A stretch of DNA of 40,417 nucleotides, taken from assembly GCA_945865695.1 (NCBI GenBank), contig CAMBFX010000009.1:1-40417 (forward strand). Direction: 5' to 3'. Position numbers and translations under genes: made by a program. The DNA comes from Chryseobacterium gleum. GTDB lineage: Bacteria; Bacteroidota; Bacteroidia; Flavobacteriales_D; UBA2798. Of the stretch, positions 1,097 to 32,989 are shown piece by piece. The notes under the pieces were generated by a model that did no database searches, had not been told where the DNA came from, and saw only the letters and a program-made list of their open reading frames with translations. Within the stretch, counting starts at the first letter, position 1, and each line of letters begins with the position of its first letter.

Positions 1097-3364
1097 TTAA
1101 GCTTTAATACTTGCTCGAATAATATTTAATGCTCCTCCAGCCTTAAACCATTCTATTTGCTGAGCATTATAACTGTGATTTACTTTAATAGAATCTTTAC
1201 TTCCATTGGAGTGATTAAAAATCATGATTAACTGTTGACCAGGTGCAAAATAATTCAAACCAGCGATTTCGATTATATCATCTTCTTGAATTTTAGTGTA
1301 ATCTTCTTTGTTGTCAAAAGTTAAAGCTAACATCCCTTGTTTTTTCAAATTGGTTTCATGGATTCGAGCGAATGATTTTACCAATACCGCACGAACACCT
1401 AAATGACGAGGTTCCATAGCCGCATGCTCACGAGAAGAACCTTCACCGTAATTCTCGTCACCAACAACAATAGTTCCTATATTTTCAGCTTTATAAGCAC
1501 GTTGAACTTTTGGAACACCATCATAAGCACCCGTTAATTGATTTTTTACATTATCTGTTTTTTCATTGAAAGCATTAACAGCACCGATTAACATGTTATT
1601 GGAAATATTATCTAAATGTCCACGATATTTCAACCACGGTCCTGCCATTGAAATATGATCGGTTGTACATTTTCCTTTTGCCTTAATTAATAATTTTAGA
1701 TTTTTTAAATCGACCCCTTCCCAAGCTGCGAAAGGATCTAGTAATTGCAATCTATCGGAAGTAGGAGATACTTTTACAGAAACAGAAGAACCATCTTCAG
1801 CGGGTGCTAAAAATCCGGCATCTTCAACTGCAAATCCTTTTTTAGGTAACTCATCACCTGTTGGTGCATCCAATTTTACTTGCTCACCTTTTTCATTGGT
1901 TAAAGTATCTGTTAACGGATTAAAAGAAAGATCACCTGCGATTGCCAAAGCTGTTACTAATTCTGGAGAGCCTACGAATGCAAATGTATTTGGATTTCCA
2001 TCAGCACGTTTAGCGAAATTTCTATTGAATGAATGAACAATGGTATTTTTTTCTGCTTTCTCAGCACCTGTTCTATCCCACATACCGATACATGGTCCAC
2101 ATGCATTAGCAAAAACATTCGCACCAATATTATTAAAAATAGAAATGAAACCATCTCTTTCAATTGTATAACGAACTTGCTCAGATCCTGGGGTAATAGT
2201 GAACTGTGCTTTTGATTTTAAATTTTTATCTACCGCTTGTTTTGCCAATGAAGCAGAACGAGCAATATCTTCATAAGATGAATTGGTACATGAACCAATT
2301 AAACCTACTTCGATTTTTGTTGGCCAACCGTTTTTAGCTGCTTCTTCTTTCATTTTAGAAATAGGTGTTGCTAAATCTGGAGTGAAAGGACCATTTAAAT
2401 GGGGTTCTAATTCAGAAAGATTAATTTCATAAACTTCATCAAAATATTTTGCTGGATCTGCATAAACTTCTGAATCTCCAGTTAAATGTTCTCTAATTTT
2501 ATCCGCTAATTCAGCTACATCAGCACGACCGGTTGATTGTAAATAACGAGCCATTGAATCATCATAGCCGAAAGTAGAAGTGGTTGCTCCAATTTCTGCG
2601 CCCATATTACAAATGGTTCCTTTTCCTGTACAAGAAAGTGAAATTGCACCATCACCGAAATATTCTACTACTTTATCTGTTCCGCCTTTAACGGTTAACA
2701 TTCCTGCAACTTTCAATATAACATCCTTTGCAGAAGTCCAACCGTTTAATTGCCCTGTTAATTTGATACCAATTAATTTCGGCATTTTTAATTCCCAAGC
2801 TAAACCAGCCATTACATCACAAGCATCTGCACCACCAACTCCAATAGCAATCATTCCAAGTCCACCAGCATTTACAGTATGTGAATCCGTACCAATCATC
2901 ATTCCCCCTGGGAAAGCATAATTTTCTAAAACTACTTGATGAATAATACCAGCACCTGGTTTCCAAAAACCAATTCCATATTTATTGGAAACAGAAGATA
3001 AAAAGTCATAAACTTCTTGATTGGTTTTAATCGCACGATCTAAATCTTTTACTGAACTATCTTTTGCTGTAATCAAGTGATCACAATGAACAGTTGAAGG
3101 AACAGCTACTTTAGGACGTCCAGCTTGCATAAATTGCAATAAGGCCATTTGAGCTGTTGCGTCTTGCATCGCAACACGATCTGGATTAAAATCTACATAT
3201 GAAGTTCCTCTGGAATAGCCAGCAGAAGGAAGATTTTCTGCTAAATGTGAATAGAGGATTTTTTCAGTTAAAGTCATTGGTTTGCCGAGCATTTTACGAG
3301 CTGCAGCGATTTTGCCCGGCATTTCGGCATACGTTTTACGGATCATTTCGATATCAAAAGCCAT
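1097..3364 (-). CDS. acn: Aconitate hydratase, mitochondrial type
   Basis: This enzyme interconverts citrate and isocitrate in the TCA cycle, using a [4Fe-4S] cluster in the cytoplasm. At 755 residues it has the length of the mitochondrial aconitase family rather than AcnA (~890) or AcnB (~860). Visible signatures are [14 protein letters not shown] near residue 66, the substrate-binding [20 protein letters not shown] around 159, and the three cluster cysteines Cys359 (GSCTNSS), Cys422 and Cys425 (NACGPCIG). Also present are FNRNFAKR, with an arginine of the active site, and [17 protein letters not shown] in the swivelling C-terminal domain. The ATG at 3364 gives the usual short N-terminus. 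A possible -7 box (TAATTTCG on the minus strand, 3395-3402) lies 30 bp upstream. The gene is monocistronic, with its own terminator. Confidence 0.96.
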
Positions 3365-3452
3365 AGGAATTGAATTTTTAGTTTTATTGCAAGGCGAAAT
3401 TACAATTTAGAAATGTGATTAGAAAGGAAAAAAGGCAAAAAAATTTTAAATA

Positions 3453-5402
3453 TCAATCGCCCAAACTCTTTACTCCTTTTGTGATGATTAAAATATCATT
3501 AAAAGGCTTATAATCCTTGGCGTAAATAATATCAATTTTCCGAAGTGTTTTTTCGTTTTGTTGATGTTTTGGAAGAGAGGAGGAGGTTTTAATGACCCCT
3601 TTTTTGATTTTTGGTAATTTATAGCTACCAGAGCTGTTGGTGAATGAATATCCTACCCAAGATAATCTGCCGAATATAACTTTGAAAATATTTGGAAAAA
3701 ATCCTGCTTTGCGTTTTATAATTAAAATTAAAATGGGCGAAAAAAGTAGAATAATAATAGAAAAGAAAAAATCAGTTAATCGTTTATTTCTTACGTTTTT
3801 TGTTCGGGTAATTGAATTAATATCCAAAACATATAAATCACCCTGTGTATCGATGGAGTTACTTCCGATGAGATATAAACTTTCAGGCTGAGCAATTTTA
3901 AAATCAACTTTACGGCTTTCGGTTTTCGACATCAAATCAATAATTTGTTGAGCCGAATTATCTCGCGCACAAAATATAATTTCATCAATTTTATGAATAT
4001 CGATGATGTCATTTAATAAAGTAATATCGCCCAATTGATCTGCTTTTTTTTCTCCTGCAATAGGACTAACATTGGCAATAAAATCGGTAGAGTTATTGGT
4101 TTGTTTTAATAGTTCGCCTACTCGTTTTGTTTCATCAGAATGACCGATAATGGCAAATCTTTTATTGTAATTCGTGGTCAAACTATAACCGGAAATTTTT
4201 GTGAAATGAAAAATACCTCTCCATAATAAATAAGAAATGAAAACCCAAACACTTCCCATTAATAGAATTACCCGGGAAAACTGAACTTCTTTTGGTAAAA
4301 GTCCGTAAATCATCAAAAGCAATGCTGTTCCAATGAAAATACCTTTTAAAACCGCTAGTAATTTAATAGGTTTATCATATCCACCATTCAACCAAACAGA
4401 AATTAACCATAGTCCAGCATAAGATGGTAAAGCGATGTTTAATAAATCTTTTTCGAATATTTTTTCACTAAAATCACTGTATAAATTAGTAATTAGAAAT
4501 AAACCCAAAAGAATAGAGACATAATCAATAAATGGAACGATAGATTTTTTGAGAAAACGACTAAAAATTGCAGCGCCTGCTCTTAAGTAAATAGCAAAAT
4601 TGATAAGAAATGAGAAAGTCTTAGCATTTTTTTCGGAGAAATGTTTTTTCGCAAAAATGATCATCGCATTATAAAATACGAAGACATAATTAACAGAACT
4701 TTTTTTAGTGCTTTCCCCCTTGTAATGGATAATTCTTGTTTCTGGGAAATAATAGTTTTTATATCCTCCTAAAATAATTCGGTAAGACATGTCGATATCT
4801 TCTCCATACATAAAAAAATCTTCATCCAAATAACCAATTTTATCTAAAACTGATTTGCGCATCATCATAAATGCCCCTGATAGAATTTCAATTTCATGTG
4901 TTTTATCTTTGTCTAAATATCCCAAATGATATTTCGAGAATTTTTTAGAACGCGGAAATAATCGGGATAAGCCAAATATTTTATAAAACGCAACCGATGG
5001 AGTAGGTAATCCTCTTTTTGATTCGGGTAAGAAATGTCCTTTCCCATCAATCATTTTCACTCCCAAACCTCCTGAATTTGGATGCGAATCCATAAAATTT
5101 ACTGTTTTGAAAAAGGTATCTTCTTCCACTACAGTATCTGGATTCAACAATAAAACAAATTCGCCTTTCGCCATGGCAATGGCTTGATTATTGGCTTTTG
5201 AAAATCCTGTGTTAATTTTATTTTCAATGAGAATTACCTTAGGAAACTTGGCTTTAACCATTGCACAAGAGCCATCGATGGAATTATTATCCACTACAAA
5301 AACATCGCCCTCTACTTTCTCCAATGCCTTATAAACCGAGTTTAGACATTGCTCGAGGAAGTATTCTACATTGTAGTTAACGATGATAACTGAAAGCTTC
5401 AT
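3453..5402 (-). CDS. Family 2 glycosyltransferase fused to a membrane region and a reduced sugar-phosphate transferase-like tail
   Basis: Residues 1-230 are a GT2 (GT-A fold) domain: KLSVIIVNYN at the start, VVDNNSIDGS near 36, the metal-binding LLLNPDT near 84 and GEDIDMSYRI near 200. It resembles rhamnosyl/dTDP-sugar transferases of cell-surface glycan pathways. Hydrophobic helices follow at about 265-400. Residues 413-515 look like the Rossmann-type domain that precedes the catalytic part of WcaJ/WbaP-like phosphoglycosyl transferases (RFAIIGHSDETKRVGELL). At 538-586 there is KRLTDFFFSIIILLFSPI and then WVGYSF, matching the membrane entry helix and the late SLVGPRP motif of that family. 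The catalytic stretch between them (the FRQxRxG and DE-P motifs) is missing. I infer an enzyme of surface polysaccharide or glycolipid synthesis in which only the GT2 part is catalytic. The gene stands alone, not in a glycan cluster. Confidence 0.85.
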   Translation of the reverse strand: MKLSVIIVNYNVEYFLEQCLNSVYKALEKVEGDVFVVDNNSIDGSCAMVKAKFPKVILIENKINTGFSKANNQAIAMAKGEFVLLLNPDTVVEEDTFFKTVNFMDSHPNSGGLGVKMIDGKGHFLPESKRGLPTPSVAFYKIFGLSRLFPRSKKFSKYHLGYLDKDKTHEIEILSGAFMMMRKSVLDKIGYLDEDFFMYGEDIDMSYRIILGGYKNYYFPETRIIHYKGESTKKSSVNYVFVFYNAMIIFAKKHFSEKNAKTFSFLINFAIYLRAGAAIFSRFLKKSIVPFIDYVSILLGLFLITNLYSDFSEKIFEKDLLNIALPSYAGLWLISVWLNGGYDKPIKLLAVLKGIFIGTALLLMIYGLLPKEVQFSRVILLMGSVWVFISYLLWRGIFHFTKISGYSLTTNYNKRFAIIGHSDETKRVGELLKQTNNSTDFIANVSPIAGEKKADQLGDITLLNDIIDIHKIDEIIFCARDNSAQQIIDLMSKTESRKVDFKIAQPESLYLIGSNSIDTQGDLYVLDINSITRTKNVRNKRLTDFFFSIIILLFSPILILIIKRKAGFFPNIFKVIFGRLSWVGYSFTNSSGSYKLPKIKKGVIKTSSSLPKHQQNEKTLRKIDIIYAKDYKPFNDILIITKGVKSLGD

Positions 5403-25166: not shown

Positions 25167-25212
25167 AGTTCAAAGTTCAAAGTTCAAAGTTCAAAGTTCA
25201 AAGTTCAAAGTT
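25167..25212. repeat. Tandem array of a 7-bp unit (AGTTCAA)
   Basis: Six and a half perfect head-to-tail copies of AGTTCAA lie directly after the lipoprotein gene. The perfect copies imply recent slippage, so copy number probably varies between strains. Confidence 0.95.
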
Positions 25213-25249: not shown

Positions 25250-25288
25250 CATTAAACATTAAACATTAAACATTAAACATTAAACATT
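25250..25288. repeat. Tandem array of a 7-bp unit (CATTAAA)
   Basis: Five and a half perfect copies of CATTAAA lie 37 bp after the AGTTCAA array and end 4 bp before the stop codon of the convergent hypothetical gene. The unit length is the same as in the two other arrays of this window but the sequence differs. Confidence 0.95.
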
Positions 25289-25291
25289 CCT

Positions 25292-26245
25292 CTAATTATT
25301 ATCCGCCTCCCCATACAAATTCCCAAATTCTTCTCTCCCAATTTGCATCGTTACTTCTTGACGAAATAAATTTCCATCAAAAGTCCACCTTCCTTCTTCG
25401 TAGAAAACATCTTCACCTTCGGCATCATCGTTTTTATGACCGTATTGAAAAGCATGATCAATCTCATTATAAGAAATATAATTATTGTCAAAATCCCAAT
25501 CTCTAAAGAAAATCGCGAAGGTATAATCACGATCTGCATTAACCGATTCTAATATTTCCATAGGTTCCAGACCATTTTCAGTAATAGAATACATCATCAC
25601 TGAATAATCAAAGCAAGAACTACAACCTTTAGTTGAACCGATGAAATAATAGCTAGGATTTTTTTCACCTGGAACGATTCCCATTTCATAAATAGTTCCC
25701 GCATAATCTAATTCAATTAATTGTTTTTTGCTCTGCCCGAATGAATCGTTCAGGCGGGCGTTGGGCAGTTTCACTTCAGCTAAATTCATGTGCATCATAA
25801 ACGTTCCGCCATTATTAGAGTACCAATTATGAATCACAACTGAACTGTCGGGAGAATAAATTTTATAAGTATTTAACATAGTATCTATTCTCAGAGATGC
25901 ATATTTTTCATTTTCTACCAATTCTTTTATTAATTGTTTTGCTCCATAATTACAACTATCTATAATTTCCCAAGCATTACCATCAGGCGAAAATTTTTCA
26001 TAATCTACAATGAATTCTTTTACTTCTTCTGGAGAATAGAAGGGAGAAACATTAGCGCCAGTTGCTAAAAGTTCATTGATAATGGCCGCCTCTTTTTGTG
26101 CTTCATGCAGTACGTCACTCTGTCCCGATATATATCGGGATTGTTTCAGAGTCTGTTTTTTGTTTTGTGAGTATTTTTTATTTTGAGCTTTAACATTCAT
26201 ACTGAAGGTTAATAATAGAAGGGCGGCAAGGACTTTCGTTTTCAT
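25292..26245 (-). CDS. Hypothetical secreted protein carrying two palindromic insertions
   Basis: A signal peptide (MKTKVLAALLLLTFSMNVKA, then QNKK) predicts export of this 317-residue protein. The body has no recognised family; notable segments are GCSSCFDYSVMMYSI with a CxxC, and an acidic stretch FRDWDFDNNYISYNEIDHAF. Two short segments look foreign to the rest and coincide with DNA palindromes: RYISGQSD (26117-26152) just after a Lys/Gln-rich stretch, and LPNARLNDSFGQS (25733-25768). Both keep the reading frame, so the gene looks functional despite the insertions. It is monocistronic, with the REP-like cluster behind its start. Confidence 0.75.
   Translation of the reverse strand: MKTKVLAALLLLTFSMNVKAQNKKYSQNKKQTLKQSRYISGQSDVLHEAQKEAAIINELLATGANVSPFYSPEEVKEFIVDYEKFSPDGNAWEIIDSCNYGAKQLIKELVENEKYASLRIDTMLNTYKIYSPDSSVVIHNWYSNNGGTFMMHMNLAEVKLPNARLNDSFGQSKKQLIELDYAGTIYEMGIVPGEKNPSYYFIGSTKGCSSCFDYSVMMYSITENGLEPMEILESVNADRDYTFAIFFRDWDFDNNYISYNEIDHAFQYGHKNDDAEGEDVFYEEGRWTFDGNLFRQEVTMQIGREEFGNLYGEADNN
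25733..25768. repeat. GC-rich nested palindrome inside a coding region
   Basis: Outer arms CTGCCC (25733-25738) and GGGCAG (25763-25768) enclose an inner hairpin, GCCCG/CGGGC with TGAA/TTCA, around a TCG loop. It is far richer in GC than the surrounding gene and stays in frame. Confidence 0.7.
26117..26152. repeat. TCCCGATA-type palindrome inside a coding region
   Basis: A perfect 18-bp palindrome TCCCGATATATATCGGGA (26123-26140) is framed by ACTCTG (26117-26122) and CAGAGT (26147-26152). A near-identical core (17 of 18 bases) recurs at 31343-31360. Confidence 0.8.
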
Positions 26246-30577: not shown

Positions 30578-31252
30578 ATGATTAAGGTGTTAATAGCAGA
30601 TTCATGTGAGTTAGTTCGTATAGGACTCAGAACTGTTTTTAGTAATAATGGAACTATTTCTGTTGTTGGCGAAGCGATTTCAGGAAATGAATTATCTGTA
30701 AAAATAAAATCCTTGAAACCAGATGTGGTAGTGATTGATTACACTTCAGCTGATTTTGATATTTCTTTTATTCCAGATGCCATACAACAAAACAAGAGTG
30801 TAAAATTCATGGCCATTACCCTTATTCATAATGGAAATTCGATAATTAATGCCATGAAGTCGGGAATATTGAGTCATGTAAAAAAAGATTGCGGCATTGA
30901 TGAGATTGTAGATTGCGTGACAGAAACATCCAAAGGAAATAAATTTTTCTGCGGAAATTTATTAGACATTATTAGAAAAGAATCTATCGATATTGATAAA
31001 ATTACATCCGAAGCTTTTACTTGTGCTCCAGTAATTTTAAGTGAACGTGAATTAGAAATTATTTCTCTTATTGCGGATGGCTACACCAATCAGCAAGTGG
31101 CCGAAAAATTATTTTTATCTGCGCATACTGTCAATACACATCGTAAAAACATCATGGCGAAATTAGGGGTGAACAACACTGCCGGAATTGTGATGTATGC
31201 TGTAAAAGCCAATTTGGTCAGCCCGAATAAATATTTGTTTGCGGCTCAGTAA
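30578..31252 (+). CDS. LuxR/NarL-type response regulator with an altered receiver pocket
   Basis: The 224-residue protein has an N-terminal receiver (REC) domain (1-120) and a C-terminal LuxR-type helix-turn-helix (about 150-210; LSERELEIISLIADGYTNQQVAEKLFLSAHTVNTHRKNIMAKLGV). It is a DNA-binding transcription factor. The phosphoacceptor position is Asp54 (VVVIDY), the Thr of AITLIHN and the Lys of VKKDC are kept, but the usual acidic pair DD near the start is DS (Asp8-Ser9). Phosphorylation may therefore be weaker or absent. No histidine kinase gene is adjacent, so it is an orphan. Orphan NarL-type regulators with this layout are common in Bacteroidota. Its target genes cannot be told from the sequence. 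Confidence 0.9.
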   Translation: MIKVLIADSCELVRIGLRTVFSNNGTISVVGEAISGNELSVKIKSLKPDVVVIDYTSADFDISFIPDAIQQNKSVKFMAITLIHNGNSIINAMKSGILSHVKKDCGIDEIVDCVTETSKGNKFFCGNLLDIIRKESIDIDKITSEAFTCAPVILSERELEIISLIADGYTNQQVAEKLFLSAHTVNTHRKNIMAKLGVNNTAGIVMYAVKANLVSPNKYLFAAQ

Positions 31253-31287: not shown

Positions 31288-31719
31288 TTAAAAGGGATTA
31301 TCACTTCGTGATGGACCCATTAGTTTCCAGAGTCAGAATCAATCCCGATAGATATCGGGACTACGGTATGCTGGCGCATCCCGGTTTTTGGTTGTCATTA
31401 AGCTTATGAAAGCGGGATTATCACTTCGTGATGTACCCATTTGTCTCCGGAGTTATAATCAAAACCTCGATCGTTTTCAACGCCCGGTTTTTTGTTTTCA
31501 ATCCTCTTACAAAAGCGGGATTATCACTTCGTGATGTACCCATTTGTCTCCGGAGTCATAATCAAAACCTCGATCGTTTTCAACGTCCGGTTTTTGTTGT
31601 CATCAAGCTTACAAAAGCGGGATTATCACTTCGTGATGGACCCATTTGTCTCCGAAGTCAGAATCAAAACTCGAATTGTGACTACACAATTCTGTTTTTT
31701 GTTCCCCTCAAGCTTATGA
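31288..31719. repeat. Four tandem copies of a ~103-bp repeat next to tRNA-Lys
   Basis: The marker GGGATTATCACTTCGTGATG starts at 31294, 31414, 31517 and 31619, giving periods of 120, 103 and 102 bp. Each copy holds a small hairpin (ATCAC-TTC-GTGAT), (G/T)ACCCATT, CTCCGGAG, often CTCGATCG, then CCGGTTTTT and AAGCTT. Copy 1 (left) is longer because a TCCCGATA palindrome replaces part of the unit; copy 4 diverges after its middle. The array fills most of the 540 bp between the response regulator and the tRNA-Lys gene. GGGATT and GGACCCAT also occur in the same order in the T-arm region of the tRNA gene. Confidence 0.92.
31343..31360. repeat. TCCCGATA-type palindrome within the tandem array
   Basis: TCCCGATAGATATCGGGA differs by one base from the palindrome at 26123-26140. 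It lies in the first copy of the array, where the other copies have CTCGATCG. Confidence 0.85.
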
Positions 31720-31751
31720 AATCGAAGACGCTTTCAACGCTTTCGGGAAAC

Positions 31752-31783
31752 AAAAAACCCCGAAGCTGAAGCTTCGGGGTTTT
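31752..31783 (-). terminator. Strong terminator downstream of tRNA-Lys (works both ways)
   Basis: ACCCCGAAGC (31757-31766) and GCTTCGGGGT (31771-31780) form a perfect 10-bp stem with a 4-nt loop, extended by A/T flanks. On the minus strand a T run follows, ending tRNA-Lys transcription 14 bp past the tRNA; on the plus strand a shorter T run follows. Confidence 0.9.
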
Positions 31784-31793
31784 GATTTATCTG

Positions 31794-31866
31794 TGATCCC
31801 GCTGGGATTCGAACCCAGGACCCATACATTAAAAGTGTATTGCTCTACCAGCTGAGCTACGGAATC
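31794..31866 (-). tRNA. tRNA-Lys (anticodon TTT)
   Basis: The 73-nt cloverleaf is complete. The acceptor stem is GATTCCG / CGGGATC with discriminator A. The D arm is GCTC / GAGC with the AGCTGGTA loop. The anticodon stem is ATACA / TGTAT with loop CTTTTAA, giving anticodon TTT. The T arm is CTGGG-TTCGAAT-CCCAG. The 3' CCA is not encoded, so RNase Z processing and CCA addition are expected. Confidence 0.96.
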
Positions 31867-32943: not shown

Positions 32944-32989
32944 ATTCAAGATTTAATATTCAATATTCAATATTCAAGATTCAAGATTT
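32944..32989. repeat. Tandem array of a 7-bp unit (ATTCAAG/ATTCAAT)
   Basis: Six and a half copies of a 7-bp unit (ATTCAAG, ATTTAAT, ATTCAAT, ATTCAAT, ATTCAAG, ATTCAAG) lie between two minus-strand genes, 2 bp after the phosphatase stop codon. The copies are slightly diverged, unlike those at 25.2 kb. Confidence 0.9.

Follow-up and report, generated by a model that had tools for sequence, protein, structure and literature searches.

Tandem repeat arrays behind tRNA genes in a Flavobacteriales family: the tRNA-Lys array and its possible link to GIY-YIG nucleases

Introduction

The closest described arrangement is that of Escherichia coli tyrT, which is followed downstream by tandem rtT repeats containing tRNA 3' sequence; these give an RNA, rtT, which is released from the tRNA primary transcript, and they encode a small basic peptide. 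The array described here resembles rtT in that its tandem units are directly behind a tRNA gene (tRNA-Lys) and in that, at related loci, the unit includes the tRNA's own 3' end. It differs from rtT in that no sequence kinship is seen, a terminator parts tRNA-Lys from the array, the unit probably carries an inverted terminator and not a plain tRNA 3' end, the peptide frame is not kept, and the class of arrays touches many tRNAs. Of the parallel with rtT drawn by an earlier sequence-only reading of this DNA, the arrangement stands and the peptide is unsupported. Short intergenic palindromes in tandem arrangement are also shared with REP/BIME elements, but the tRNA-Lys unit is at one locus and only the inner palindrome of copy 1 is dispersed. 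Hairpin insertions in stable-RNA genes are also known from the intervening sequences of 23S rRNA, which go with four-helix IVP proteins (PF05635), and an IVP ORF trails one of the arrays described below, that of a tRNA-Leu(TAA) gene; unlike those insertions, the DNA affected here is tRNA-trailing and rRNA plays no part in the window. In the open papers searched, nothing relevant was found on repeats trailing tRNA genes in Bacteroidota or on Bacteroidota elements that combine GIY-YIG genes with tRNAs.

The second system to be compared is SegB of phage T6/T4, a GIY-YIG homing endonuclease located beside tRNAs, which cuts within tRNA genes, shows RAWTSGAAC as its preferred motif, and is needed in phage T6 for a 718-bp tRNA-Tyr/segB unit to be amplified in tandem (PMC13096335). 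By our own identification, this motif on the opposite strand, GTTCSAWTY, is the T-loop consensus GTTCGAATC. The Flavobacteriales loci are like the SegB system in showing a GIY-YIG gene adjoining tRNAs at related loci, copies which break at a T-loop matching the SegB motif, and tandem segmental amplification at the tRNA, the SegB unit consisting of tRNA plus nuclease gene. They are unlike it in being chromosomal, with genes predicted to encode small single-domain proteins; in addition, the copied segments represent only part of a tRNA and carry hairpins in the T-loop, and the window array is without a nuclease gene.

Genomes and searches

The window, which is the whole stretch of DNA analysed (40,417 nucleotides), belongs to contig 9 of a draft genome of 3.34 Mb (G000). 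Two genomes of the same family were used for comparison: G001, from a sister genus, and G002. Base-by-base reading covered 2.08 Mb of the 3.34 Mb of G000 (62%), window included, and the remainder was covered by searches. These genomes are drafts with broken contigs, in which repeats at contig ends are missed.

The tRNA-Lys locus

The locus contains the following features, in the order of the forward strand:

30578-31252, plus strand: LuxR-type response regulator gene, convergent with tRNA-Lys; its stop is 41 bp short of copy 1
31294-31413: repeat copy 1, of 120 bp; hairpin block 31294-31318 and dispersed palindrome TCCCGATAGATATCGGGA at 31343-31360
31414-31516: repeat copy 2; hairpin block 31414-31438 and AAAACC..GGTTTT terminator-like stem 31461-31491
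31517-31618: repeat copy 3; hairpin block 31517-31541 and AAAACC..GGTTTT terminator-like stem 31564-31595
31619-31720: repeat copy 4; hairpin block 31619-31643 and terminator-like hairpin 31673-31692, then a plus-strand T-run
31694-31713 and 31739-31758: arms, 85% complementary, of an imperfect inverted repeat joining copy 4 to the T-run of the tRNA-Lys terminator
31754-31783: intrinsic terminator of tRNA-Lys, two-way, with a 13-bp stem and a T-run on either side
31793-31866, minus strand: tRNA-Lys (anticodon TTT), found by ARAGORN and by Rfam (RF00005, 72.8 bits)

Going away from tRNA-Lys, the order is the two-way terminator and then copies 4, 3, 2 and 1. The four tandem units that the sequence-only reading had placed beyond the terminator are confirmed, with an array span of 31294-31720. 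Their starts are at 31294, 31414, 31517 and 31619, giving steps of 120, 103 and 102 bp; the period of about 103 bp proposed in that reading holds for the last two steps and fails for copy 1, which has 120 bp and contains the dispersed palindrome. The nearest named matches of the LuxR protein, 55-59% identical to it, come from Flavobacteriales MAGs, Crocinitomicaceae and Cryomorphaceae among them. The aroK gene adjoins tRNA-Lys in G000 and also in G001 and G002, both of the same-family genomes examined; at tRNA-Lys/aroK of these two genomes the array is absent, and the LuxR gene does not adjoin tRNA-Lys in either of them.

A single element trailing tRNA-Arg(ACG) in contig 35 is 72% similar to the stretch from copy 4 to the tRNA-Lys terminator; the sequence of its arms differs from that of the tRNA-Lys counterpart, yet the arms are complementary.

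Whole-genome searches of G000 show the unit as four copies at a single locus, so that a dispersed repeat family is ruled out. Among 100 relatives, no match to the unit was found beyond short weak ones; its 20-bp core has no match among 84,980 species, and the unit was not found in collections of viral contigs, plasmids and phages. In Rfam the tRNA itself is the sole match, leaving the repeat without a known RNA family. The refuting condition set by the sequence-only reading, a unit located mostly away from tRNA genes, has no bearing on a unit of one locus; the class of arrays, described below, withstands it.

Structure of the repeat unit

Each unit shows the same small hairpin, as the earlier reading had stated: GGGATTATCACTTCGTGATG is identical in 4/4 copies, with 0 matches expected in shuffles, and the hairpin of this conserved block does not vary among the four. 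The first 27 bp of the copies (GGGATTATCACTTCGTGATG[GT]ACCCAT) have a mean pairwise identity of 98%, the next 22 bp 86%, the middle 58% and the end 72%. The middle part of every copy contains a further hairpin whose sequence varies by copy: AAAACC..GGTTTT in copies 2 and 3, the TCCCGATAGATATCGGGA palindrome in copy 1, and in copy 4 an 8-bp stem, GAATTGTG/CACAATTC, with a T-run after it.

Short frames beginning MG(T/P)SRSDNPAF had been noticed in copies 2-4. They are present, and copy 1 has one as well; the frames are MGPSRSDNPF in copy 1, MGTSRSDNPAF in two copies and MGPSRSDNPAF in the other, with lengths of 10, 33, 40 and 21 codons from copy 1 to copy 4. The coding of a kept small basic peptide is rejected, because neither the lengths nor the ends of the frames are conserved between copies, and the unit length is not divisible by three. 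The MGxSRSDNPAF frames look accidental and seem merely to restate the conserved hairpin block. An rtT-like role, in which the array would be transcribed together with the tRNA or next to it and would yield a functional small RNA or a basic peptide, is very improbable: a terminator is between tRNA-Lys and the array, the ends of the frames are unrelated, and the unit is kept in no other genome searched and has no Rfam match, although its location behind a tRNA, the identity of the hairpin block (98%) compared with the middle (58%), and a GGAG preceding the ATG of the frames would suit such a role.

Copy 4 is the only one that folds clearly better than its shuffled versions (z -3.0 and -3.4), the values for copies 1-3 being just -1.2 to -2.2. 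These values bear on the idea of a selected terminator bank, that is, several two-way hairpins insulating tRNA-Lys from the convergent LuxR gene. The fold of copy 4, its terminator-like hairpin with T-run, the convergent layout, and stems whose sequences vary between copies while pairing is kept all point in this direction. We consider it improbable given the weak folds of copies 1-3, the strong terminator already present, the tRNA-Met array of the same genome, which sits between codirectional genes, and the tRNA-Lys genes of G001 and G002, which are without an array. The hairpins could plausibly still stop transcription coming from the LuxR gene or from tRNA-Lys, but a clear folding advantage over shuffles is seen in copy 4 alone.

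Arrays behind other tRNA genes

A tRNA-associated repeat class in this lineage, suggested by the sequence-only reading, is borne out by arrays behind tRNA-His, tRNA-Met and tRNA-Gln in G000 and behind 6-7 tRNAs in G001. The DNA behind all tRNAs of G000 was inspected, and its arrays are directly after the terminators: tRNA-His, on contig 29, is trailed by 3.3 units with a length of 101 bp, and tRNA-Met, on contig 1, and tRNA-Gln, on contig 122, are trailed by two units each, of 97 bp and 159 bp respectively. The His, Met, Gln and Lys arrays have unlike sequences and a similar layout. In G001 arrays trail Arg-TCT, with 3.8 units of 102 bp, and Leu-TAA (112 bp), and others trail Pro-TGG, Ala-GGC and two tRNA-Met genes; G002 contains one, behind Leu-CAG. 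No array was found at ten tRNA-Lys loci of other families. With ORFs masked and tRNA 3' regions over 80 bp counted, arrays are present in 4/20 tRNA 3' regions of G000 against 14/534 protein 3' regions (Fisher p=0.003); when short regions are also counted, the tRNA fraction is 4/29 (p=0.011). In G001 it is 6/20 (p=3e-5, against the protein control of G000 and not G001's own). The tRNA-trailing tandem arrays are a class in this Flavobacteriales family, of which the tRNA-Lys array is one instance.

In G001, the 112-bp array of tRNA-Leu(TAA) is followed by the ORF for the 23S rRNA intervening-sequence protein (PF05635).

Origin of the units

In tRNA sense, the conserved hairpin, ATCAC-GAA-GTGAT, is flanked on the left by GGTCC or GGTAC and on the right by AATCC. 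These flanks agree with the tRNA-Lys T-arm (GGTTC/AATCC) at 9/10 positions in every copy, by the count of the script, a match reached in <=1/300 dinucleotide shuffles per copy. The sequence-only reading had GGGATT and GGACCCAT in the same order in the repeat and the T-arm; this collinearity is better than chance, but an exact GGACCCAT is limited to copies 1 and 4, and copies 2 and 3 have GTACCCAT. Because the T-arm is near-palindromic, T-arm-like flanks leave the orientation ambiguous. The T-arm halves were dropped as proof of sense orientation, the T-arm being quasi-palindromic and the terminator match inverted. The same flank test on the Arg-TCT array of G001 gave nothing. T-arm-split hairpins seem dense in tRNA 3' regions (Poisson 2e-6), but the value comes from two loci and for this reason is not taken as strong evidence.

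Array regions were also aligned with their own tRNA 3' end and trailer, using 500 shuffles. In inverted orientation, the array matched the trailer/terminator of its own tRNA for tRNA-Lys (score 41, with shuffles as high in 3/500), tRNA-Met (40, 1/500), tRNA-His (60, 0/500), tRNA-Gln (44, 1/500) and the Arg-TCT array of G001 (54, 0/500), and copy 4 of the tRNA-Lys array matches the tRNA-Lys trailer/terminator, inverted, with 0/500. On each array region, its own inverted trailer beats all 74 other tRNA 3'/trailer queries. The plus strand of a tRNA-Lys copy reads AATCAAAACC[hairpin]GGTTTTTTGTTTTC, and the tRNA-Lys terminator on its own strand reads AATCAAAACCCCGAAGC..GCTTCGGGGTTTTTTGTTTCCC. The alignment of the tRNA-Lys body/3' end with the units has a score of 17, equalled in 363/500 shuffles; direct copying of the tRNA-Lys 3' end was rejected, its score of 16 being below that of most other targets. 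The descent of the tRNA-Lys units from the inverted trailer/terminator of their own tRNA is well suggested by these alignments and not proved, because the tRNA-Lys inverted match does not stand out when protein 3' ends serve as a stricter background.

Tyrosine-recombinase integrases use the T-loop and the 3' end of tRNAs, and the units might accordingly be stacked old attachment sites from tRNA-targeting elements of this kind. Such a case may be present in a region (2169-2700) of G010, a genome of another family, where 17 nt of the tRNA-Lys 3' end, AATCCCAGCGGGATCAC, recur behind the gene and adjoin what appears by eye to be a tyrosine-recombinase gene fragment. For the window array this origin is highly improbable: the units are only about 100 bp long and without a long block of tRNA identity, and no integrase was noticed among the listed ORFs of the window.

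Broken tRNA copies and GIY-YIG genes

Duplications of the 3' region, in direct or inverted orientation, are present at many tRNA genes of this family, and several of the direct ones enclose a small GIY-YIG gene. At seven tRNA loci, copies of the tRNA are broken in or around the T-loop, mostly between C56 and G57 (GTTC^GA). The tRNA-Met locus of contig 246 in G000 contains an intact tRNA, a terminator, a GIY-YIG ORF, hairpins, TTCAAATCTCTCTCTCGCTAC, which is the 3' part of tRNA-Met beginning at the T-loop, and then another terminator. The tRNA-Phe locus of G001 has a like arrangement, with two GIY-YIG copies and the junction GGGTTC[hairpin]GATTCCC. Also in G001, tRNA-Ala shows CGGTTC[hairpin]GACTCCG twice and then two GIY-YIG genes, and tRNA-Pro-GGG shows another hairpin in place of the whole T-arm. 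In G002, tRNA-Arg-CCG shows a GIY-YIG ORF and then GGGGT[hairpin]TTCGATTCCC, and tRNA-Leu-CAG shows AGTTC[hairpin]AGTCTCAC twice. Contig 81 of G000 (3355-3800) contains a tRNA-Ala 5' part ending in CGGTTC, in which a hairpin sits in or replaces the anticodon arm, then a GIY-YIG gene and then a complete tRNA-Ala(GGC). The break at GTTC^GA is clear in G000 Ala, G001 Phe and G001 Ala, and is 1-3 nt off in G000 Met, G002 Arg and G002 Leu; the tRNA-Lys array of the window shows only the hairpin between T-arm-like halves.

The GIY-YIG proteins at tRNA loci match PF01541 with 52-62 bits and have 28-52% mutual identity. Across seven genomes of five families, 14/31 small GIY-YIG genes share the strand of a tRNA located within 800 bp upstream of them, compared with 1/18 of the GIY-YIG matches in large proteins. 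The adjacency of a small gene has a chance of about 0.4% each, and the computed probability is about 1e-25; the events are not fully independent, because there are tandem copies at one locus, and the excess without them is still very large. A GIY-YIG gene adjoins a tRNA at tRNA-Met and tRNA-Ala of G000 and in six other genomes; none was found in or near the tRNA-Lys array.

G000 also contains three dispersed 32-43-bp fragments of the tRNA-Lys 3' half with no tRNA gene there: two in contig 76 (992-1034 and 5755-5786), flanking ORFs that look by eye like toxin-antitoxin genes (PIN-, HipA- and RelE-like), and one in contig 22 (15037-15074).

Formation of the arrays

Plain recombination or replication slippage would need neither nuclease nor function: palindrome-rich DNA behind strong terminators would fold back and give inverted and then tandem copies, and the tRNA enrichment would come only from strong terminators and the free space behind them. 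The copies inverted around the terminator, the arrays that also trail protein genes (14/534) and the tRNA-Lys array without a nuclease gene are as expected from such a process. It does not account for the seven other tRNA loci whose copies break in the T-loop, or for the closeness of GIY-YIG genes to tRNAs, and we hold it to be unlikely.

The explanation we prefer, at about an even chance, is that the tRNA-Lys array consists of lineage-specific non-coding tandem duplications trailing the tRNA, an ORF-less decayed member of the class marked by GIY-YIG genes and T-loop breaks. We infer both the link of the array to this class and a GIY-YIG nuclease as the cause of the arrays and the broken copies. 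A nuclease of the SegB kind would cut the T-loop of the tRNA, and repair of the break from locally copied DNA would leave one whole tRNA and one broken copy, which a hairpin in its T-loop would make uncuttable. In an array, each unit would contain a part of the trailer/terminator of its own tRNA, copied inverted and joined to a T-arm-like hairpin; the joined unit would then be amplified head to tail, recombination between copies multiplying short ORF-less units into arrays, which drift. On this account the tRNA-Lys array would have arisen long ago and be left without an ORF, its nuclease gene lost or never present. The inverted arrays may be a phenomenon distinct from the direct copies with GIY-YIG genes. 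GIY-YIG adjacency is not proof of nuclease action, and tandem arrays also trail protein genes at a low rate.

More tentatively, Flavobacteriales might contain minimal selfish elements made of a GIY-YIG nuclease with a single domain, which would cut the universal T-loop of tRNAs and carry a replacement tRNA part and a terminator, the host tRNA being restored with each insertion and ORF-less derivatives giving rise to arrays; this we regard as possible, at somewhat less than even chances. If true, these proposals would give a reason why fast-changing repeat arrays trail tRNA genes in this family, provide the orphan small GIY-YIG genes of Bacteroidota chromosomes with a defined target, the T-loop, extend the nuclease-driven tRNA amplification of phage SegB to cellular genomes, and offer a ready case for testing how a selfish nuclease survives inside an essential gene by bringing the missing piece.

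Other repeats

The dispersed palindrome of the TCCCGATAGATATCGGGA type (TCCCGATA..TATCGGGA) is found in the window at 26122-26155 and 31343-31360, and in contigs 12, 43 and 76. A separate intergenic repeat of about 108 bp (or 67 bp), both dispersed and tandem, with the palindrome CCTCCCCTT..AAGGGGAGG, is found in contig 11 (14755-15033), contig 79 (3404-3641) and contig 40 (8826-9000). The window also contains perfect or near-perfect heptanucleotide tandem repeats at 25167-25212, 25250-25288 and 32944-32988 (AGTTCAA, CATTAAA, ATTCAAG).
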